NCBI GenBank assembly: GCA_021797675.1
Contig: JAJZZH010000036.1
Span: 1 to 64,000, forward strand
Source of the DNA: Bacillota bacterium
GTDB lineage: Bacteria; Bacillota; Sulfobacillia; Sulfobacillales; Sulfobacillaceae
Direction of reading: 5' to 3'
Length of the DNA: 64,000 bases
The translations under genes were made by a program, and so were the position numbers. The notes beneath the pieces are model-generated. The model was not told where the DNA came from, made no database searches, and saw nothing but the letters and a program-made list of their open reading frames with translations. Positions 1 to 11,151 of this stretch are shown here, piece by piece (position 1 is the first letter of the stretch; each line of letters opens with the position of its first letter).

Positions 1-72
1 TCCTATCCAACTGCCACCCCGACCGAACCCTCCAACGTATCGTTCCGCGAACCAGCACAACGGACGGAATTA

Positions 73-1710
73 TCACACAAATACTAAACGGGGAAGTCTG
101 AGGCCTGATAAATAGCGACTTGGCGACGTTCGCGGAGCGACATTTTGTAACACCAGTACAAGGTCCTTGGGTGAGGCTTTCTCTGACGGGCGACGGGTCA
201 CCCCGACGACGGTTTCCTGGCGGACCTGCCCCGTTTTCCCCGATCGTCGTTGTACGTTCGAGGACAAAGCCTTGCTGGGAACATCGAGGTAGGCGTTCAG
301 GGCCGTACTGGCTCGCCAGGACCGATGGGCGATGCGCCCGTGCCCTTTCTCCAGCGTTTCGGCCGGAGCGAAAAACGCGTCGGGGGACAACGCCCGGAGG
401 TCCGCTTCGAGGGTGGTGGGCGGATTCCCCTTGGCAATCACGAGGTAATCCGCGTGCTTGCCCCCCACGAGCTAGGTGGCCAGGTCCGGTGGGGTGTGCA
501 TAGCATCGCCCGTGACGAGGGCGCCCTGCAGATCGAGGGAGTCGAGGAGGGGATAGGCGGCGGGAATTTCGTTGGATTTCTCGTCGACTTCCGTCTGAGC
601 GAGGACGCGGGTGGTGCCATAGACGACCGCGGAGACCAGATGGCGCGCTTTCGCCGTCTCGCTGCGCGAGCCGCGCACGGTTTTTCCATCGAAGGCCACC
701 GCATCGGGCACGCCCTGCTCGCGCATCCATTCGGTCAAAATCCGATCCAAGGCCTCGACATCACTACGCTGCAGGGCCCGCCGAATCGCGGCTTCGCTCG
801 GCGGGACATAGCGGCCCTTCCACCGAGCCGCCTGGAGCGTGGCCAGTTGGTCTTGGGTTAAGGTCGCGGCCCACTCGCCAATGGCTAACAAACTGGTGCA
901 GCCGGCGGCGATGGCGGCTAAGGCGATGGTGAGGATGGTGATGTACGCGTGGCGCACGCCGCGCGGCTTGCGGACGTCCGGCAGAACCGCTAAGCGGGCC
1001 ATGAGGCTCCGGGGATGGTGTACTAAAGATTCCGTCGACAAGGTGATCGTCCCCCGTTGGGCAATCAAAGCGGGCGCGTCCCACACGGCGGTGAGCCACG
1101 CCCGCGCCTGCGGCACCAACGGCCGCACCGCAACGTGTTTGGCCTGACCATGCCACACATAGGTTCCCTGGTGGCGCCCAAAGCCGAGGGTCAGGCCCAC
1201 GGTTTGCCAATTGGCCGCGCGATAGACCGTCCCGCGGAAGCGGGACGGGTCAATAAAGGTTTCGGCCAATATCACGGGATGGCCGTGGATAGCCTGCCAG
1301 TCGCGAGCCAAGCGCCGCAGCGCCAAGCCGAGGACGCGGGATCCCAAATTGGGGACATGCGCGTCGGGCAGGATAAGAAACCGCGCATTGTTGGCCACAA
1401 ACCGCAAGCGCCGCCGGCGTTGCTCCGGCGTCCAGCCAATCCAAGCGTCCCGAGCGCGGCACCGATAGGCGGCAGCCGTCCATCCGAGTAACGCGACCCA
1501 CTGGCCGTTCCACTCCGCGACTTGATACAGGCGCTCCCCGACAAAACCGGGAAACCCTAAATAATGATGGCGTGCCATCAACTCCTGCCAGCGCGCGACT
1601 TCGTCGCGCGCCACCAGGCGGACGGTGATCTCCCGTATAGGAACCGATATCATGGAAGGTTCTGGTTTCATAATCCAATGATATACCTGTGAAAAGAGGC
1701 TGTCCACCAT
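73..1710 (-). pseudogene. Interrupted DUF4338 (DruA-like)-ISAs1 fusion transposase
   Basis: The first part (about residues 20-210) resembles DUF4338, the domain of Druantia protein DruA (motifs HHYLGF, WIGWTPEQR, FRGTVYRAANW). The second part is an ISAs1-type DDE transposase (DVRKPRGVRHAY, VAFDGKTVRGS, then GDAMHT). The frame runs from 1710 to an in-frame TAG at 472-474 just after the GDAMH motif. It then continues in the same frame (GGKHADYLVIAKGNPPTTL) to about 135, where similarity stops before the usual GHWGIEN region. The copy is therefore both nonsense-interrupted and truncated. DUF4338-ISAs1 fusions are known as a transposase architecture, so a defence role here is not implied. No terminal repeats were located. 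The start is uncertain: ATG codons at 1671 and 1656 are alternatives. Confidence 0.8.
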
Positions 1711-2130
1711 TTATTAATATCCATCAACCATCCGGGTTGCCAGAACTTTGCCGTAGCCCTGACGGCGTCCCCCACCGCCGTCCCTGCCTCTGGTACGGGC
1801 GCTTGGCCCTGGGGTCGATCGTCGCCTACCACCAGGCCTGGATCCGTGAGGGTGAAACAATCGCAGCCTAAGCGCCGCGGCGAAAGGAGGTGAGGCCTCG
1901 CCAGGGATCATACAGATTGGCAGGATCTGGCAATCCACAGATCCTCAGTAGAGTATACTCTCATCGCGGAGACTCCGGTAGCCGAGGACACCCAACCCGA
2001 GTTTGCCAATATCTCCCGATTGCAACATTTGACCCCACTTATTTTATGAAATGGCTCCTAGCCCTGGGGGCCACCGTCGCGACCGTACGATTGTATTTGC
2101 GCAAGTATGCCCAGGGCGGCCTCGACGCCC
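1711..2130. other. Non-coding or decayed stretch
   Basis: No intact gene is visible. On the plus strand at about 2047-2132 a short frame reads like the helix-turn-helix of an IS630-type transposase (KWLLALGATVATVRLYLRKY, then AQGGLDAL). It is immediately followed by the degenerate rpn copy. It may be a transposase remnant, but the match is short. Confidence 0.3.
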
Positions 2131-2583
2131 TGAATCGCATCAATCTCAGCCTCCGACAACCCCGTCACTTCCGCTATCTCCGCCGGCATGAGGCCTTTGC
2201 TGAGCATCTTGGTTGCGATCTCAATCGCCTTGAGTTGTGCGCCTTCGTCCCGTCCCTCCTTATGGCCACTTATGGCCTTCGTCCCATCCCTCCCGACGGC
2301 CTTCATCCCGTCCCTTTTCTTCAGCGCTGGCAATTGCGGACGCATAATCATGCAACGCCTTCTCCCGAGCTTCATAGAGCAGTCGTGTCTGTTCATCGTG
2401 ACTCAGAAATTCGAGGGTAGTCAACGCTTTTTCCATCATGGGATCTCCCTTTACCAATGGATCCGGTGCTGAATCTTGGGCGGTTCCAGAAAATGGATGG
2501 CGAGATGGTCGGTGAGCACCTGTCCCGCCGCATTTCTGAGGTGAAACACATTATGGTATGGTCATTCGCAATCTCTGCGAAGG
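2131..2583 (-). pseudogene. Degenerate partial duplicate of the rpn gene
   Basis: This block repeats most of 2684-3243, the 3' part of the neighbouring Rpn gene, with scattered substitutions. Compared with that copy it has lost part of the EGRDEG repeat and about 75 bases around 2461. It is also frame-shifted: residues MEKALTTLEFLSHDEQTRLL lie in one frame and the C-terminal LKAIEIATKMLSKGLMPAEI in another. No start or N-terminal nuclease domain is present. It looks like a non-functional tandem duplicate, possibly produced by recombination within the gene. Confidence 0.8.
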
Positions 2584-2665
2584 ATATCCCGGCCGCGCGG
2601 CATGTGGTCCGCTACACGGGGGAGCAGCGCTCCAACGTCGGTTGGCCCTTCGCCGCGCCACCACG

Positions 2666-3613
2666 TTATTGCAGGCGTTGTCGAATCGCGTCAATCTCGG
2701 CCTCCGACAACCCCGTCACTTCCGCAATCTCCGCCGGCATGATGCCTTTGCTGAGCATCTTGGTTGCGATCTCAATCGCCTTGAGTTGTTCGCCTTCGTC
2801 CCGTCCCTCCTTATGGCCTTCGTCCCGTCCCTCCCGACGGCCTTCATCCCGTCCCTCCTTATGGCCTTCGTCCCATCCTTCCCGACGGCCTTCATCCCGT
2901 CCCTTTTCTTCAGCGTTGGCAATTGCGGACGCATAATCATGCAACGCCTTCTCCCGAGCTTCATAGAGCAGTCGTGTCTGTTCATCGTGACTCAGAAATT
3001 CGAGGGTAGTCAACGCTTTTTCCATCATGGGATCCCCCTTTACCAATGTTTCCAGTTGTGCCGACGTTCTTAAGCTCAGAAACAGGAGCCACCGGAGGAG
3101 TCGGGACGTCGTAGCCAAGATCCGTTGCTGAATCTTGGGCAGTTCCAGAAAATGGATGGCGAGATGGTCGGTGAGCACCAGTCCCGCCGCATTCCTGACG
3201 TGAAACACATTATGGTATTGGTCATTCGCAATCTCTGCGAAGGCGAGTACATTGATGGCAATCGCCGGATGCAAGGTGTTATACGTGTCGCCCCCATGCA
3301 GTTCGCTTTCGTAGAGTCTGGCCCAATAGTACAGGCTACGCACGCGCATATCTCCGTAGTTCCGAATTTGGACTTCAATATTGACGAGCGTGCGTGCCTC
3401 GGTCCGCGCACGAATGTCGAGCACGGACATCTTGTCGGTCAGCGCATCCTTGTCAATGAAGGGATTCAGCAGCTGCACCGATTCCACCAACGGGTCGCCC
3501 GAATCCTCAAAGATGCCATTGAGGAACGCGATTAAGACATCGCTATTCTGCTCGTCCCCGAAAATCCGCTTAAAGAGAAAATCCACCAGCGGACTCAAGA
3601 GCTCCTCTGACAT
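2666..3613 (-). CDS. Rpn family (PD-(D/E)XK) recombination-promoting nuclease / putative transposase
   Basis: This 315-residue protein starts at ATG 3613 behind a clear AGGAGGTG ribosome site. The N-terminal two thirds match the Rpn/PDDEXK transposase-like family: an opening LSPLVDFLFKRIFGDEQN, then VLDIRARTEARTLVNIEVQI, which carries the D...E-x-Q nuclease residues, and RSLYYWARLYESEL. Around residues 225-265 lies a highly charged repeat built on (E/D)G(R/H)(D/R/K) units, presumably helical. The C-terminal tail (KMLSKGIMPAEIAEVTGLS) looks like a small helix-turn-helix. Members of the family promote RecA-independent recombination and are often multicopy. A broken partial copy lies directly downstream. 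The gene appears intact; its role in this organism is unknown. Confidence 0.85.
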   Translation of the reverse strand: MSEELLSPLVDFLFKRIFGDEQNSDVLIAFLNGIFEDSGDPLVESVQLLNPFIDKDALTDKMSVLDIRARTEARTLVNIEVQIRNYGDMRVRSLYYWARLYESELHGGDTYNTLHPAIAINVLAFAEIANDQYHNVFHVRNAAGLVLTDHLAIHFLELPKIQQRILATTSRLLRWLLFLSLRTSAQLETLVKGDPMMEKALTTLEFLSHDEQTRLLYEAREKALHDYASAIANAEEKGRDEGRREGWDEGHKEGRDEGRREGRDEGHKEGRDEGEQLKAIEIATKMLSKGIMPAEIAEVTGLSEAEIDAIRQRLQ

Positions 3614-4113
3614 TTTCACACCTCCTAAGGACCTGGTGCAAAACTCGGAAAAATCGCCTTTCGGGGATCGCAGCCACACAGGTTGCAGGATTCTAGATCT
3701 GGCATTTTGGGACTTATGCATCAGCCTCTTGACTAAGATGGTTACTCTTATTTTACCCGAGATGAACCGATCTGTCTTTAGACGTAGACATATAGAAGGG
3801 TGCCAGTCGATGCGCGCACAGTGTCGCAATTCGTGCGGCTATCATTTGCTGCCACGCTCCAACGTCGGGAACTACCCAGGCTTCTGGCCGCTCGACTACG
3901 GCAGGTGGCCTCGATCTACAGGGCAAGGGCTCTTTGGCCGACGAGGAAGTGGAAGTGATACCGTTTCCTGGGTCGCAATCGCCGAATTCCAGGATGTCGC
4001 GGGCTCCCTCGCAAAGTGGCAGTAGCCCAGTGATTGGCCGGGAACAGACGAATCCACCCAGAGCTTCCTCTTCAGGATCCGAGGCGCCGGTATCGCCGTG
4101 CGCAATGGGCCTC
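3614..4113. other. Intergenic, nothing recognised
   Basis: About 500 bases upstream of the rpn gene contain no frame with a recognisable domain on either strand. The rpn promoter presumably lies in its first 150 bases, but no convincing -35/-10 pair was found. Confidence 0.4.
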
Positions 4114-4383
4114 TCAGCCGAGGCGGAACCACGGACGCCTCCGCCCTGCCGGGGACGGGGATTTGCTCGTACAGCCCTCGGCTAGGCCTGGACTGGACTT
4201 TGTGGCGCGGATACCGGCAATTGCAACTTTGTTGGTGGACTCACCTGGCCCCAGGGCGGAAAGTTCGGTCTTGCCGTGATTCCGGTCGTATTTTGCGACG
4301 GGCTGTTGGGGTGCGCTCAATAGCGTCTCCACGAGACGGTTCCTTGCGGCTGGCGTGGTCGTCAGAGCGAGCCCTTCAGACAT
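4114..4383 (-). CDS. Possible small hypothetical protein (about 89 residues)
   Basis: An ATG at 4383 follows a GAGGTG ribosome-site-like stretch at close spacing and opens a frame reading MSEGLALTTTPAARNRLVET. I recognise no domain. It lies about 220 bases downstream of the HlyD-like gene in the same orientation, so it could be the last cistron of the bacteriocin operon. The arginine/serine-rich tail looks poorly coding, and it may be chance. Confidence 0.25.
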   Translation of the reverse strand: MSEGLALTTTPAARNRLVETLLSAPQQPVAKYDRNHGKTELSALGPGESTNKVAIAGIRATKSSPGLAEGCTSKSPSPAGRRRPWFRLG

Positions 4384-4608
4384 GATCACCTCATACGATG
4401 GTTCCTGCTAATGGGTAAGGATTACGGCTTTAGTCGTGGAGAATGGTTCAGTGACCAGTTCGTCACCACCCTTGCTGCTTTTTCGTGCCATGGTTTCTTA
4501 GGACGGATGGCATTGGTGGGGATTCTCTCCCGCTTGCGAGCCGGTAAACGTCAGCGCATCCCGTCGCCGAACACGTTGCGCGTTCTGTCGGGTCTTGGCT
4601 TTCGGTGG

Positions 4609-5895
4609 TTATCCCCGCGAAGTCGCCTTGAGAGCCACCAAGGATCCACGGGGCGGCCCGTCTACGGCCGCCTGGGAAGCCTCCACGGCGATGAGGCTGA
4701 CGGGGTGAAAAATCCATCGCCGGCCGGCGTGAAGATACACGCCCCCCTGCCCATGACGGTGAAAGTACGCCGTCCGTGGAATCAGCACCACCTTGACTAA
4801 GCGACGGGTGACGATTTCGAGGGGCTGGGGCAGATTGGCCATCTTAGGGCGCAGCGTTCCTTCCTCCTGCCCATAAAACCAGACCCCGGGGTGTCCCCGG
4901 TAGCGGACGATGGTCCGCGTGACATATCGCACCTTCCCGACCGTCCGCCCGTGCCAAACGATGCGCTCGCCAGCATGTACGCGCGACGCCAGCGACGCAG
5001 TCACAAAACCTTTCCAGGGCAGCACCGGCGTGCGTTTGGGCTCGACCACGCCCAGGGTTTGGCCCGCCGTGACGAACGACGACGACGGTACGGTAATCCG
5101 CAATCGTCCCTGCGCCGGACTCTGGAGGGGCTGGTCCCTCTGCCTGAGGATGTCCCAGGTATCCTTGGCCGCACGGGCCGTCGCCAGGTCCTGCACGACG
5201 GATGTCCGATACACCGCCAGAACGGGACCAACCGCTAGAAAACGCCCTGCCGTATGGTACCGCGAGACCGCTGCCGCTAGCTCTGCTCGCGCATGGTCCC
5301 ACGCTCGCGTGGCCTGACGCAGGTCCGTTCCTAGCGCCCACCGAAAGGTTGGAGCCTCCGAAGCCGCCCTGACCGTTTTCAGCCCCGCCCGCGCCCGAAG
5401 GACCCGGGTGTAGCGCTGTTGAACCGCATCCGCGGCGGCTAGCCAGGCCTGCCGAGCGCTCTGCAGATTAGCCTCGGCGGGGGTCCGCTGCATCGCGAGT
5501 TGACGCTTGGCGACGGTCACGGCGGCCTGGGCAGCCTTCCACGACTCGTACGCCGCTCCCAGCGACAGCTTGAAGAAAGGGGGAACCACGCTGCAAAGTG
5601 ACTGCCCGTGGCCGACCATGGCCCGCTGCCCCGCATGCGGCAGCCAGTTGAGCGTTCCGTTCCAGGGAGCCCTCAGGGGAAGCGGCGGTGAACGCCGCCA
5701 CCATCCCGTGGCGGCCAGGCCAACCACCATCGTCCCCTGATGCGCCCTGGCCCGGGGCACGGATACGCCGGGAGCACGCATGGGACGGACCGAAAGATAG
5801 GTGCCGAAGGCCATCATCCCCAAGCCCAGACCAGCCGCCATCAGCAAGCCGCTGCGGCGCCCCGACACCGACCTCCACGCCGTGCCCGCCACCAT
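4609..5895 (-). CDS. HlyD-type membrane fusion protein of the bacteriocin exporter
   Basis: This 428-residue protein starts at ATG 5895, overlapping the stop of the C39-peptidase gene (TAATG), so the two are translationally coupled. One membrane segment is seen near residues 14-33 (SGLLMAAGLGLGMMAFGTYL). Two half biotinyl-lipoyl motifs follow (LRAPWNGTLNWLPHAGQ and LQSPAQGRLRITVPSSSF). They flank an alpha-helical, alanine- and glutamine-rich stretch typical of the adaptor's coiled-coil hairpin, and a beta-rich C-terminal part follows. Proteins of this type join an ABC exporter to the outside of the cell in Gram-positive bacteriocin systems. The family call rests on architecture rather than strong signature residues. 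Confidence 0.75.
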   Translation of the reverse strand: MVAGTAWRSVSGRRSGLLMAAGLGLGMMAFGTYLSVRPMRAPGVSVPRARAHQGTMVVGLAATGWWRRSPPLPLRAPWNGTLNWLPHAGQRAMVGHGQSLCSVVPPFFKLSLGAAYESWKAAQAAVTVAKRQLAMQRTPAEANLQSARQAWLAAADAVQQRYTRVLRARAGLKTVRAASEAPTFRWALGTDLRQATRAWDHARAELAAAVSRYHTAGRFLAVGPVLAVYRTSVVQDLATARAAKDTWDILRQRDQPLQSPAQGRLRITVPSSSFVTAGQTLGVVEPKRTPVLPWKGFVTASLASRVHAGERIVWHGRTVGKVRYVTRTIVRYRGHPGVWFYGQEEGTLRPKMANLPQPLEIVTRRLVKVVLIPRTAYFHRHGQGGVYLHAGRRWIFHPVSLIAVEASQAAVDGPPRGSLVALKATSRG

Positions 5896-7259
5896 TATTT
5901 CGCATCCTCCCAAAAGTCGTGCAAACGATACAAGGAAGGTTGGGCAACCTGCCAAGCCACATATTTCTGGTACAGACTGTGAATCGCCGAGGTAAGATAG
6001 TTGACCAGGAAGAGCGTGCTAAGCAGCGGCGCCGTCCCCGGCGAGATTCCATGACGCAACCCAATTAACAGCAGAACCGCCAAAATGCCCAAAGCCGGCG
6101 TTTGACTGACCGCCACGCCGATGGGAATCGACCACAAGGTTTGCCGAAAGGTAACGTCGACCAACCCGTTCCAGCTGGCAAACACGGGCTCGGGCGCCTT
6201 CCCCCAGGCTTGGCGCAGCGCATTGTTCAAACGTGCCGATTTTAGCCGCACCTGATAGAGGTAGTCGCGCATGCGGCCTACGAACGGAGCGAGGCCACTT
6301 AATATCACCATCATCAGCCCGGAGAAGAACACCGCCAATGCGGGTTGCCGGTATAGCAGATAGCCCAGCGTACCCAGAGCCACGGTCAGCGTGTAGGGAA
6401 AATCCCGGGCCAAGCCCAAGATGACGTCGACCACGCTCTGCACATCCTGAAAACGGGTATAAGCGTCCCCCACGGTGAAAAAATGTGTGTTCAGCCGAGG
6501 GAACGCCGACTCCAACAGAAGGCCCCCGCGGTGGTTCAGCCGTCGCCGCAAAGACGCCGCCCACCAGGCGGTAAAGGCCGAAAGCACCAGGCTCACACCC
6601 AAAAACCCTGCCGTAATCGCCTCCAAGCGGGGCAAATCGGAGAGATAAAACGGCATAAAGATCGAAAACGCCGCGTTGGTTACGCCCAGCAACGTCGCTG
6701 GCCCGGCTAGCAGGATCAATCCACCCCAATCACGGCCGACCATCCGCCGAACCAGCGGCCGAACCGCGGGTCTGCTGCAACGGACGTCGCCCCCGCCTCG
6801 GCGCGGAATCAACACAATCGTGATGCCGTCCCAATATTGCAAGAAGGTGGACAACGGCATCCGCTGCAGTCCGTTGCCGGGGTCGCCAATCATCACCCCG
6901 GACGGGTCTACCGCCCATACCACCACGAAATGCTCCTGTTGCGGCCAAAACGCGATAAATGGCAACCCACCCGGATCCAATTGGCCAGGTTTTTGGCGTC
7001 CTAATCGAACCTGGAACAGGTCGCTGAGCCCCAGCTGAAACTGTTTAATGGTGGTGCCTTGCACGGGGTCCGTGACCAGGCGGCGCCGTACCTCGCCTAA
7101 GGAAATCGATATTCCATACCACTCCGCAATCGCCATGACGCAGGCCGGGGCGCAGTCGTTCGCCGCCAATTGAAAATGGAACGGCACCACCGCTCCACGG
7201 CCACGTGATTTCAAAGCCATCAACCTTACCGTGCTCAGGCAAACATAACCGCCGAGCAC
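5895..7259 (-). CDS. C39 peptidase-ABC membrane-domain protein lacking the ATPase domain
   Basis: This protein of about 454 residues would cleave double-glycine leaders and export the peptide. The N-terminal 140 residues form a C39 peptidase: QLAANDCAPACVMAIAEWYG holds the oxyanion Gln and catalytic Cys, EHFVVVWAVD the catalytic His, and GDPGNG the Asp. About six membrane segments follow (from GGLILLAGPATLLGVTNAAF to the segment around LVNYLTSAIHSLYQ). The protein ends at YRLHDFWEDAK, where the ATPase linker would begin. Usual family members are about 700 residues and carry a nucleotide-binding domain. Here the stop codon overlaps the start of the HlyD gene, so the short form looks genuine. 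The GTG start at 7259 is chosen because GGAGG lies upstream; ATG at 7274 or 7220 is possible. Confidence 0.85.
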   Translation of the reverse strand: MLGGYVCLSTVRLMALKSRGRGAVVPFHFQLAANDCAPACVMAIAEWYGISISLGEVRRRLVTDPVQGTTIKQFQLGLSDLFQVRLGRQKPGQLDPGGLPFIAFWPQQEHFVVVWAVDPSGVMIGDPGNGLQRMPLSTFLQYWDGITIVLIPRRGGGDVRCSRPAVRPLVRRMVGRDWGGLILLAGPATLLGVTNAAFSIFMPFYLSDLPRLEAITAGFLGVSLVLSAFTAWWAASLRRRLNHRGGLLLESAFPRLNTHFFTVGDAYTRFQDVQSVVDVILGLARDFPYTLTVALGTLGYLLYRQPALAVFFSGLMMVILSGLAPFVGRMRDYLYQVRLKSARLNNALRQAWGKAPEPVFASWNGLVDVTFRQTLWSIPIGVAVSQTPALGILAVLLLIGLRHGISPGTAPLLSTLFLVNYLTSAIHSLYQKYVAWQVAQPSLYRLHDFWEDAK

Positions 7260-7486
7260 CGCCCCCTCCTTCATCGAGTTTTGGCTTGCCTATGCATGGC
7301 TTGCCGGCTTCCCGCAGATCTTGGGTTATCCTATGCCCAATCGTTGCCCTCCGGCGCCGAGCGCGAGGGGTGGCACGGGACGTTCGGAAAACCGCCTTCA
7401 CCCACGACCGTCACCGCGCCGGCCATGCCCGCCGCAACCAAGGATTCACCACTGGCCGGAGGCGGTTGCCCCGTTCGGCAAAGCGG

Positions 7487-7879
7487 CTACAAACGCCCGT
7501 GATGCACCACCAGTGCAATGATGATTCCGATCACGAAAATACCGCCACCGGCGATCACCGACCATTGAAAGACCCGTTGCAACGGCATGCCCCACAGTCG
7601 GCCCGCCGGTAACGAACCGCGCGCCCCTTGGTACAGCAAGAAGAGACCAACCAAAATCAGCACCGTGGGGAGAAATTGCACGAGGTAATCGACGACGACG
7701 GGCAAAGTGGCAAAATAGCGACCGGCCGCCAGCCTGTCTTCGATCAAAAACAGAAAACACAGCGACCCGAGCATGATCATTCCGGCGCGATACGAGCGCG
7801 ACAAGAACCGCCAACGCCAAACCGTGGCACTGGTTCCAAAAATCAACGCAAATACCAAGAGCTCTTGGCTGCTACCCAT
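7487..7879 (-). CDS. Small multispanning membrane protein of the bacteriocin operon (possible immunity)
   Basis: This 130-residue, strongly hydrophobic protein has about four predicted membrane segments: residues 6-20, 32-48, 62-84 and 108-126. It ends in a short basic tail (VVHHGRL). It lies between the precursor gene and the peptidase/exporter gene on the same strand. ATG 7879 is preceded by GAGGGCGG and overlaps the stop of a tiny upstream frame. No conserved family is recognised. Position, size and topology fit a bacteriocin immunity protein or an export accessory subunit; this is inference only. A gap of about 230 bases separates it from the exporter gene. Confidence 0.7.
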   Translation of the reverse strand: MGSSQELLVFALIFGTSATVWRWRFLSRSYRAGMIMLGSLCFLFLIEDRLAAGRYFATLPVVVDYLVQFLPTVLILVGLFLLYQGARGSLPAGRLWGMPLQRVFQWSVIAGGGIFVIGIIIALVVHHGRL

Positions 7880-8026: not shown

Positions 8027-8335
8027 TTAAAAGGCGGAGGACACCGCTCCCCACACCCAGCCAATGCCGCCGCCCAAGAAGGCTCCGGCAGCCCCTCCAA
8101 CGGCAGCTTGCGGCACGGAAAATACGCAAGCAGAGTCCGCACACCCAGCAATGCCACCCACCACGGCTCCCGCGCCGCCGCCAATAAAGGCACCCGCCGT
8201 GCCATCTTGGTTGGCCTGACTGATCCAACTTCCTCCGCCCTGCAACGCCAACTCATCGGCGGTTAAAGGCTCCAATGCTAGACTGTCGGCGGAAATCCGC
8301 AAATTGAAATCTGCCGAACGGGTTTCTTCGTGCAT
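8027..8335 (-). CDS. Double-glycine-leader bacteriocin-like peptide precursor
   Basis: This 102-residue precursor starts at ATG 8335 behind AAGGAGGAGG. The leader of about 34 residues is acidic and ends LTADELALQGGG, close to the class II consensus (L, T/S, E-L, then GG). Cleavage is expected after Gly34 or Gly35, since register slightly favours the latter. The mature part of about 67 residues is rich in Gly and Ala with GxxxG spacing (AGAFIGGGAGAVVGGIAG and AVGGAAGAFLGGGIGWVWGA). It has two cysteines in CADSAC that could form a disulfide. Such glycine-zipper helices are typical of pore-forming class II bacteriocins. A C39 peptidase gene downstream in the same operon supports the call. No second peptide gene was found nearby. 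Confidence 0.8.
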   Translation of the reverse strand: MHEETRSADFNLRISADSLALEPLTADELALQGGGSWISQANQDGTAGAFIGGGAGAVVGGIAGCADSACVFSVPQAAVGGAAGAFLGGGIGWVWGAVSSAF

Positions 8336-8440: not shown

Positions 8441-8911
8441 TGGGGATTGATTAACATAAACATCACCAATTGTCACCCCGCAAACGGTTGTACAGGAAGC
8501 TCCCTCGCATCACGCCGAATTAGCGTCACCCGGGCACGCTACCTGCAACGTCTGCAGCATGTTTCGGTGTGCCACGATCGCTAAACCCTCGACCCATGAT
8601 GGGTTAAAACGCCTCGAACGATTCCCGATGACGCAAGCATTGGCCATCCCGGCGCGGCGCGATTTAGGAGACGCTCGCCGTGGCCGAAGCATGGCTATCC
8701 ACGATGCCTGGCAACGGGCAATCGAGTCAGTTTCCGGATAACGAAAACCCCATACCTCGGTGCTGAGGCCCATCGTCCACCCATCTGGAGCATCCGCCGA
8801 ACCGGACATAGCCTGGGCAGCGCTATACGCTCGGGAGGGGGGCGATCGGCCAAGAAGGCGGAGTTATACACTAACTTGCTGCTCTATGCCTAAAGGTGTG
8901 TAATATAGGTC
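8441..8911. other. Intergenic, nothing recognised
   Basis: Between the bacteriocin promoter and the IS607-type element no frame shows a recognisable family. Short frames at 8559-8741 (+) and 8510-8809 (-) have no visible domain. The left end of the insertion sequence probably lies near 8880. Confidence 0.4.
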
Positions 8912-9520
8912 ATGGAACGCACATTAACCCGTCATGAAGTGGCTCACTTGCTTGGGGTGAACGTCAAGACGATACAACGGTGGGATCGCGAGGGCCGACT
9001 CAAGCCCGCCGGTCGGACGGCAACGGGGCGTCGCTATTACACCGAAGATCAAATTGTTGCCTCTCCGACATCAGCGGCCTGCCACGACGGGTCCTCGTAA
9101 GACCGTGGCGTATTGCCGAGTCAGTCGTCAGAGCCAGCGGCCCGATTTGAAGAACCAACGGGTCGCACGGGAACCGTTCTGTACCGCCCGCGGGCTCGCT
9201 AATGTGGAGTTTGTCGAGGAAGTCGGTGGCGGCATGAACTTTGGCCGCAAGCGGTTTTTAGCCTTGATGGATGCCGTGAATGCCGGGGAAATCGGCACGT
9301 TGATTCTGGCCCATCAAGACCGATTGCCTCGGTTTGGTGTTCGAGCGATTCTGCCACCAACACGGGTGCGAGATTTTAGTCCTCCACCAAGAGCACTGGT
9401 CGCCCGAGCAAGAGTTGGTCCAAGACCTACTCACCATTATGCAGGTCTTTTCAGCCCGGTTGTACGAATTACGGAACTATCGCAAGAGCTTAAAGGAGGC
9501 CATCCATGCCGACGTTAGCC
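8912..9520 (+). pseudogene. tnpA: Frameshifted IS607-type serine recombinase (TnpA)
   Basis: The N-terminal MerR-like helix-turn-helix (HEVAHLLGVNVKTIQRWDRE, then RRYYTEDQI) is intact. The serine-recombinase domain follows in a second frame from about 9100 (TVAYCRVSRQSQRPDLKNQ, LILAHQDRLPRFG). The C-terminal part lies in a third frame from about 9334 (CEILVLHQEH, ELVQDLLTIMQVFSARLYEL). At least two frameshifts, near 9095 and 9330, split it. The catalytic Ser in YCRVSRQSQ is still present, but no full-length protein can be made. Confidence 0.85.
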
Positions 9521-10660
9521 CACAAGATCCGACGCCGGATCAGATCCGATTCTTTAAGCAAGCCGCCGGTACCGCGCGGTTGGTTTGGAACTGGGCGCTG
9601 GCCGAATGGGACTGACAATATGAGGCCGGGCAAAAACCCCAAGCCTCTACATTAAAGAAGCAGTTTAACGCTCTGAAGTACGAGCGGTTTCCGTGGCTGC
9701 GCGACGTGCACCGAGATGCTCATGCTCAGCCGTTTGCGGATTTAGCGGATGCCTGGCATCGCTTCTTTACCGGGCAGAACGAACGCCCGGCGTTTAAGAA
9801 AAAAGGGGAAACCTCCGACAGTTTCTATGTGGCGAACGATACGTTTCAGATTGTCGACCGCCGCGTGAAACTGCCCAAAATCGGCTGGGTGCGCTTGCGC
9901 GAATCGCTCCGATTCCCCGGCAAAATCTTGGGCGCCCGGATGGTTCGTGAAGCCGATCAATGGTTTTTCGCGGTGCACGTGTCCAGGCCTGATTCCATCA
10001 ATTATCGGACCCGCACGGGGCATGGCGTGGATGTCGTGAAGACCTTCGCCACCCTGTCCACCAGCGACAAGATCGCGGGGCCGAAAGCCCCTCGCCGCGC
10101 TTTGCGCCGCTTCAAAAGACGTCAACGCGCCATCACCCGGACCATGCAAGCCGCCAAAGTTCAGATGGGCTTGGCTTCGCAAGATCCGCTCCCGAAAGGA
10201 ACGCGGTTGCCGCGCGGCCGGAATTGGGACCAGGCCAAAAACCACGTCGCCCGGACCCATTTTCGGGTCGCGAATCTTCGCCGCGATTTCTTGCCCAAAA
10301 CGTCCACGGACCTCTGTCGCAAAAACCAAGCCACCGGGAGCGAAACGTTGTCGGATGACGAATCATCGGTTGGCGCGGAGCATCACAGACCAGGGGTTTG
10401 GTCAGTTCTTTGCTTTGCTGCAATATAAAGCCGGTCGGTACGGAACGCAATGGACCGAAGCCCACCGCTGGTTTCCCAGCAGCAAACTGTGTTCGACGCC
10501 TGGTTGTGGCTATCTCAAGAACGATCTCACCTTAAAAGACCGTGTGTGGACTGGTCCATCGTGCGGAATGACGCATGATCGGGACATTAACGCGGCAATG
10601 ACCCTGAAAGGGCTGGCAACCCCAACTGCCCTACCTGTAGCGACGGCTTCGGGGCAGGCA
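9506..10660 (+). pseudogene. tnpB: Degenerate TnpB RNA-guided nuclease of the IS607-type element
   Basis: A start at ATG 9506 follows AAAGGAGG. The reading shifts frame near 9530 (DPTPDQIRFFKQAAGTARL). It meets TGA at 9613-9615, then continues (DVHRDAHAQPFADLADAW, VKLPKIGWVRLRESLRFPGK). The first RuvC motif reads GHGVDVVKTFATLS, several residues shorter than the family's usual GVDLGVTT. The second RuvC region near 10330 is lost to another frameshift. The C-terminal zinc motif retains CSTPGC but reads WTGPSC where TnpB proteins have WTCPSC. It is clearly inactive. Confidence 0.88.
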
Positions 10661-10661
10661 G

Positions 10662-10693
10662 AAATCGGGGTGCACTATTGCGCACCCCGATTT
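10662..10693 (+). repeat. 12-bp perfect hairpin at the right side of the IS607-type element
   Basis: AAATCGGGGTGC and GCACCCCGATTT pair perfectly around an eight-base loop, followed by TATT. It lies directly after the TnpB coding remnant, where the right-end guide RNA of such elements is expected. It could be part of that RNA or a terminator. Confidence 0.6.
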
Positions 10694-11151
10694 TATTACC
10701 GAGGATGGACCAGGCTCCTGGCCCCCGCGTTGGCAGCTGGGGGTCGTGTCTGGCACCGAAGAAGCCTTCGCGGACATCGAATCCTGGGGTGCGGGGCTAC
10801 GGCAGCGCTGGGCCGAGGCGATCCAGGGAGCTTACGCGCGAGCCCAGATCAACACCCACTGCGGAATAATGCGGTCATCACCGACGCATTCCTCCGGCGC
10901 CGTTCGGGTAGGGAGGACCGCCAGCGCAGCCCTTCCCGTCTCCGCGTCGGGACGGAGCAGCCACCGCCACTCCTCAAAGCGCATCGAGGCCTCGGGAGTC
11001 CGATCGACATGCCTGCCGCCGGTGGCCACATCAGTCCTTGCCCGCTGCGGGATGGCGTCCCAAGACCTGGCCCGGATCTTCCGGAGACTCGGCGCTATCT
11101 TCCCTGAACTCCATCTCGGACCGTACTCCCCGTGGCTCAGGGTACGACGGA
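10694..11151. other. Intergenic, nothing recognised
   Basis: A plus-strand frame from 10746 (GTEEAFADIESWGAGLRQRW) looks protein-like for about 40 residues and then loses coherence. It could be a fragment of a lost gene. No domain can be named. Confidence 0.35.

Follow-up and report, generated by a model that had tools for sequence, protein, structure and literature searches.

Results

The window, by which we mean the whole 64,000-nucleotide stretch of DNA that was analysed, comes from a draft genome of 242 contigs. It carries genes for a peptide, a small membrane protein, a C39 protein and an adaptor, followed by mobile-element debris. The features are given below with reference to G018, a near-complete genome in 3 contigs from another genus of the same family, which holds the nearest complete homologue of the C39 protein.

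8027..8335, minus strand: putative bacteriocin precursor, 102 aa (from the sequence and the leader consensus)
7487..7879, minus strand: small membrane protein, 130 aa, with 3-4 predicted helices (from hydropathy)
5895..7259, minus strand: C39 peptidase with an ABC-exporter-type transmembrane domain and without a nucleotide-binding domain (NBD) (from Pfam, phmmer and alignment)
4609..5895, minus strand: divergent MacA/HlyD-type membrane-fusion adaptor, 428 aa (from similarity to the G018 adaptor)
472..4608, no single strand: transposase-like and Rpn-like ORFs, where G018 has an NBD and a MacB-like permease (read from the sequence)

The C39-membrane gene lies in an uninterrupted ORF, 5895-7274 (-), and the in-frame GTG at 7259, directly 3' of AAGGAGGGGG, is its likely start. 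Pfam places Peptidase_C39 at residues 32-158 (E 3.7e-17), and the catalytic triad noted in an earlier, sequence-only reading of this DNA is indeed present, with the active-site Gln, Cys, His and Asp all found (FQLAANDC, HFVVVW, GDPG) and invariant in three relatives. The same reading had counted about six membrane helices, and hydropathy gives about 5-6. The Pfam ABC_membrane match is sub-threshold (E 0.13), and the phmmer alignment with PCAT1 (4ry2) spans residues 38-354 (E 7.6e-15), reaching into the membrane domain. Pfam found no ABC_tran in the protein and none lies downstream, in agreement with the earlier remark that the protein ends before the NBD; the reported overlap of its stop with the next gene is likewise real, the stop TAA and the ATG of the adaptor gene sharing one base at 5895 (TAATG). 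The closest NCBIfam models are those of the NHLM and ComA bacteriocin exporters (TIGR03796 NHLM_micro_ABC1, TIGR01193), at 34.7 bits against a cut-off of 853. The AlphaFold model is of low confidence. Built from two sequences, it is usable for the C39 domain and unreliable for the membrane domain, and we therefore base no structural claim on it; its best PDB match is PCAT1 over 410-425 columns, and the TM-score of just 0.29 reflects the poor modelling of the membrane part. No second C39 domain was found in the host genome, which has one broken paralogue of the membrane part only.

The precursor and small membrane protein genes lie upstream of the C39 gene in the same direction. The leader of the precursor, ...L24TADE28L29ALQGGG35, fits the consensus L(-12)xxxE(-8)L(-7)xxxxG(-2)G(-1) quoted for leaders of PCAT substrates (PMC6959990), and the core is hydrophobic and glycine-zipper-rich, with weak Pfam Gly-zipper matches only. 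The 130-aa small membrane protein gave no significant family match in Pfam or NCBIfam and is a possible immunity protein or AS-48E/YknW-like accessory protein. The adaptor has no direct family-model match. Compared with the G018 adaptor, to which its identity is 30-36% (E 1e-45), it is full length. Beyond it, a sensitive tblastn search of window positions 1-4700 with the G018 NBD, the G018 MacB, the MacB of the host genome and a PCAT NBD as queries revealed no trace of an NBD or MacB, the best E value of 0.28 being at chance level.

Several other features of the window were noted by eye. An Rpn/PD-(D/E)XK-like ORF at 2058-3829 (-) has a C-terminal EGRDEGHKEGRDEG repeat tract and is adjoined by a partial second copy of its own 3' end. 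At 73-1710 (-) lies an ISAs1-like transposase fused to an extra N-terminal DUF4338-like domain and broken by a stop near 480. A broken IS607-like element occupies 8911-11107 (+), where a MerR-like start, serine-recombinase fragments and a TnpB-like ORF are spread over several frames.

Relatives and distribution

Relatives of the C39-membrane gene were found in 4 of 34 genomes of the same family. The G018 homologue, of 442 aa, is 54-56% identical to the window protein, ends at the same point before an NBD and is followed directly by an adaptor gene, as in the window. A natural C39 and membrane protein without an NBD, as the sequence-only reading had proposed, is thus present in both genomes, and it is not the case that close homologues all carry the NBD, since the nearest complete one is without it. 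A frameshift or truncation of the C39 gene, of which that reading had seen no sign, is ruled out by the G018 homologue, which ends at the same point, and by the absence of an NBD downstream. A third copy, in G021 (PXYV01000006, deposited as Sulfobacillus acidophilus AMDSBA3), is 45% identical and has its C-terminus cut by the contig end; it has the same membrane-domain deletions as the window and G018 proteins and is predicted from its sequence to be without an NBD.

Broken copies were found in the host genome (contig C50, 3 stops; L011 2395-3027) and at three places in the genome G020, and a further fragment of a C39-membrane gene lies upstream of the G018 operon (L012 5440-5523). Such fragments, beside and apart from intact operons, suggest repeated gain and decay of the locus. 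At two places in G020 a 115-aa membrane protein gene (L014 7669-8016 and L016 4461-4808; 81% identity), likely a cognate immunity or accessory gene, lies directly upstream of a C39 remnant. Other small membrane proteins hold this position in the relatives, and apart from the two G020 copies they share no mutual similarity. By eye, a 667-aa S53 (sedolisin) peptidase-like ORF (L011 117-2120) adjoins the broken paralogue on contig C50.

An alignment-model search of 154 genomes of the class gave no intact copies outside the family of the window. Among 398 genomes of the phylum, matches outside the family lie in frames of full-length size, 722-1054 aa, except for one 257-aa fragment at a contig end. 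In the contig collection, the single-protein query gave no further relatives and the alignment query gave only PXYV01000006, the G021 contig itself. No relatives were found in viral contigs, and the plasmid and phage collections held only distant matches, at 22-28% identity among the matches listed; nearly all of the plasmid matches listed are annotated as ordinary peptidase-domain ABC transporters. Given its presence in 4 of 34 family genomes, the broken copies and the lack of intact copies elsewhere in these searches, the clade is therefore small, patchy and decay-prone.

The G018 operon and possible ATPase partners

In G018 the gene order is two GG-leader peptides, a 153-aa membrane protein, the C39 protein, a MacA-like adaptor, an NBD and a MacB-like permease, and no NBD is fused to the C39 protein. 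The adaptor matches RND_mfp (TIGR01730, 2e-16) and HlyD_3 (4e-4), the stand-alone NBD matches ABC_tran (8e-37), with FtsE, LolD, DarD and the lactococcin-972-exporter among its best models, and the permease matches MacB_PCD (8e-13), the NBD and permease genes overlapping. The PCAT leader consensus is matched by both G018 precursors as well as by that of the window. One G018 leader ends in GG and the other fits best with GS, which is listed among the double-glycine-like motifs in a published account (PMC10885120). The same adaptor-NBD-MacB order is reported for AS-48FGH and DdHIJ, and DdGHIJ reportedly provides up to 75% of EntDD14 transport as well as some of the resistance (PMC5985334, PMC9865063).

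Because the window protein has no NBD, energy for any export must come from elsewhere, as the sequence-only reading had argued. The orphan MsbA/ComA-type NBD that it proposed as the source was not found: the host genome has no stand-alone exporter-type NBD, and all strong matches lie in fused half-transporters of 578-655 aa. Its interpretation is partly supported, as regards the natural NBD-less form and the outside energy and not as regards the orphan NBD. The host genome also has no relative of the G018 MacB. It has FtsEX and, on another contig, one MacB-like protein with no recognisable adaptor beside it, a candidate partner in trans for the window copy. A broken MacB of the G018 kind lies at the end of a contig in G003, a genome from the window's own genus.

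The membrane domain compared with ordinary PCATs

We aligned the three proteins of the NBD-less clade (window, G018 and G021) with 18 full-length PCATs of the phylum, and apart from deletions the match covers the entire membrane domain, which is of the six-helix type IV exporter kind. Two anchor-to-anchor segments measure 85 and 60 residues in 18 of 18 PCATs and 76 and 48-49 residues in the three. Hydropathy places the 12-residue deficit between predicted helices 4 and 5; all three proteins show it and none of the 18 PCATs does. In type IV ABC exporters the intracellular loop between these helices bears coupling helix 2, which contacts the opposite NBD, and intracellular loop 1 is the other NBD contact. 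The 9-residue deficit consists of 6 residues in the first outer loop and 3 immediately before intracellular loop 1. The latter loop itself (VGDAYTRFQD) is retained; with 55-65% identity it ranks among the most conserved parts of the membrane domain, and it has the arginine common to all 18 PCATs.

Identity between the window and G018 proteins is 53% in the membrane domain and 63% in the peptidase; for the window and G021 proteins the values are 46% and 47%. Clade-specific invariant charges occur in the membrane domain at R272, D273, R325 and K419 (numbered from the ATG at 7220), and judging from the alignment it has acquired invariant charges that are unusual in PCATs, notably R272 and D273. 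No glutamate in this domain is invariant among the NBD-less proteins, and the SLiPT glutamate ladder was not found; the aspartates that are invariant (D252, D259 and D273) map to intracellular loop 1 or close to it, and at two of the three most ordinary PCATs also have an acidic residue. Conservation near the level of the peptidase, together with the gained charges, fits a domain still selected after the loss of the NBD and not a fresh truncation, and the loss of part of the NBD-docking loop argues against simple sharing of an NBD. A PCAT, as described, combines three domains in a single chain. The C39-membrane protein is clearly PCAT-derived, but since it departs from PCATs in two defining respects, the NBD and the length of the docking loop, it should not be filed as one.

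Discussion

We propose that this motor-less former PCAT acts as a membrane-bound leader peptidase for which a MacAB-type pump supplies the ATP energy, and we give this explanation about an even chance of being right. An ancestral PCAT would have lost its NBD together with part of the NBD-docking loop. The bacteriocin-like peptide encoded alongside would have its GG leader bound and cut by the cytosolic C39 domain, and its core would be passed on by the membrane domain, acting as anchor and entry gate. The MacAB-type pump, made up of the adaptor, the FtsE/LolD-type NBD and the MacB-like permease, would power export or release of the peptide, self-protection, or both. Only the pump adaptor is left beside the window gene, and this copy has therefore probably lost its pump and is either uncoupled or dependent on a pump in trans.

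This division of labour between two modules is modelled on the complete operon, which is found in one relative only (G018), the G021 contig stopping inside the gene. The counterpart module of AS-48 serves mainly immunity, and the G018 module may therefore serve immunity and not export. MacB-family pumps have been described as acting from the outer face of the membrane, on substrates already beyond the cytoplasmic membrane (PMC5985334), which leaves the crossing of the peptide without an explanation should the membrane domain be passive.

A rival explanation is that the window gene is an inactive relict of a bacteriocin island in decay, even if the family was formerly functional. Broken copies are common: the host genome has one (C50), G020 has them at three places, and a fragment precedes the G018 operon. 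The MacB-type remnants of G003, from the same genus, are broken as well, mobile-element ORFs lie downstream of the window adaptor and any copy at all is seen in only 4 of the 34 family genomes. Against this, the window has uninterrupted frames for the peptide, the small membrane protein, the C39 protein and the adaptor, with an overlap between the last two, the catalytic residues are intact and identity with G018 spans both domains. We consider a relict unlikely, while still giving it some weight. That the genome is a 242-contig draft might instead suggest that a sequencing or assembly error cut short a normal PCAT, but this is almost certainly not so: the G018 gene has the same end in a 3-contig genome, none of the downstream frames encodes an NBD, the adaptor gene begins within the stop codon, and the loop deletions sit within the preserved part.

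Two further explanations concern the source of energy. The NBD-less ABC fold could move the peptide by the proton gradient, like SbmA/BacA (SLiPT). The proton gradient is steep in acidophiles, and a named relative is Sulfobacillus acidophilus. SLiPTs have been proposed to descend from full ABC transporters after loss of the NBDs and coupling helices (PMC13316013); in this clade the NBD is similarly gone, along with at least part of one coupling-helix loop, and the membrane domain is constrained and has gained invariant charges (R272-D273 and others). On the other hand, no SLiPT glutamate ladder was found among these proteins, the invariant aspartates sit at or near intracellular loop 1, and the peptide would be exported, in the reverse direction to transport by SbmA, so that proton-driven transport seems improbable to us. 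We find it about as improbable that the membrane domain uses an NBD in trans as a split PCAT would, whether the LolD-type NBD of G018 or another cellular NBD in the window host. The kept intracellular loop 1, with its 55-65% identity and the arginine of all 18 PCATs, and the free NBD encoded in the G018 operon would suit such an arrangement, but the coupling-helix-2 loop is 12 residues short in all three proteins and in 0 of 18 PCATs, the operon NBD is of the FtsE/LolD/MacB type with a gene that overlaps the MacB permease gene, and the host genome is without an orphan exporter-type NBD.

The literature searched, most of it outside subscription journals, held no report of a natural C39 and membrane protein without a motor, and the accessible parts of a survey of cyanobacterial C39 proteins and of a review of RiPP proteases mention no NBD-less form. 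A clade that is without the motor and part of the docking loop, and that keeps the peptidase, the membrane domain and GG-leader substrates, would separate processing from ATP-driven export. With the G018 operon it can be tested whether a MacAB-type pump drives the export of peptides whose GG leaders a motor-less peptidase has removed. In a wider form, which we put forward with little confidence, a PCAT lineage may have lost its ATPase and part of the docking loop independently of SbmA/BacA and become either a secondary, proton-driven peptidase-transporter or a peptidase gate powered by a neighbouring MacAB-type pump; if true, this would be a second case of an ABC exporter turned into an NBD-less peptide transporter.

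Comparison with known systems

The window protein resembles PCATs (PCAT1, ComA, LahT) in its intact C39 active site, in a membrane domain that aligns through helix 4 and in the GG-leader peptide and membrane-fusion adaptor encoded nearby. It differs from them in having no NBD, in the 12 residues missing between helices 4 and 5 and the 9 missing between helix 1 and loop 1, and in scoring far under the NCBIfam equivalog cut-offs. FapD, from amyloid export in Pseudomonas, is likewise a C39 peptidase that works in a secretion pathway with no NBD fused to it, but it is periplasmic, has a Sec signal and is without an ABC membrane domain (PMC5557850).

The G018 operon shares a small membrane protein and, later, an adaptor, an NBD and a MacB-like permease with AS-48EFGH, EntDD14 DdGHIJ and YknWXYZ, while the window shares only the adaptor. 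The known modules act for circular or leaderless bacteriocins or protect against SDP, and their descriptions include no C39 peptidase; in contrast, the G018 operon includes GG-leader peptides and a C39 membrane protein.

Like SbmA/BacA (SLiPT), the window protein has an ABC-exporter fold minus the NBD; of the NBD-docking elements, the coupling-helix-2 region is shortened and intracellular loop 1 is kept. It differs in having neither a glutamate ladder nor a recognised TM0, in carrying a C39 peptidase and in being derived from PCATs and not from YddA-type transporters. The joint loss of the NBD and part of the docking loop parallels the origin proposed for SbmA/BacA.
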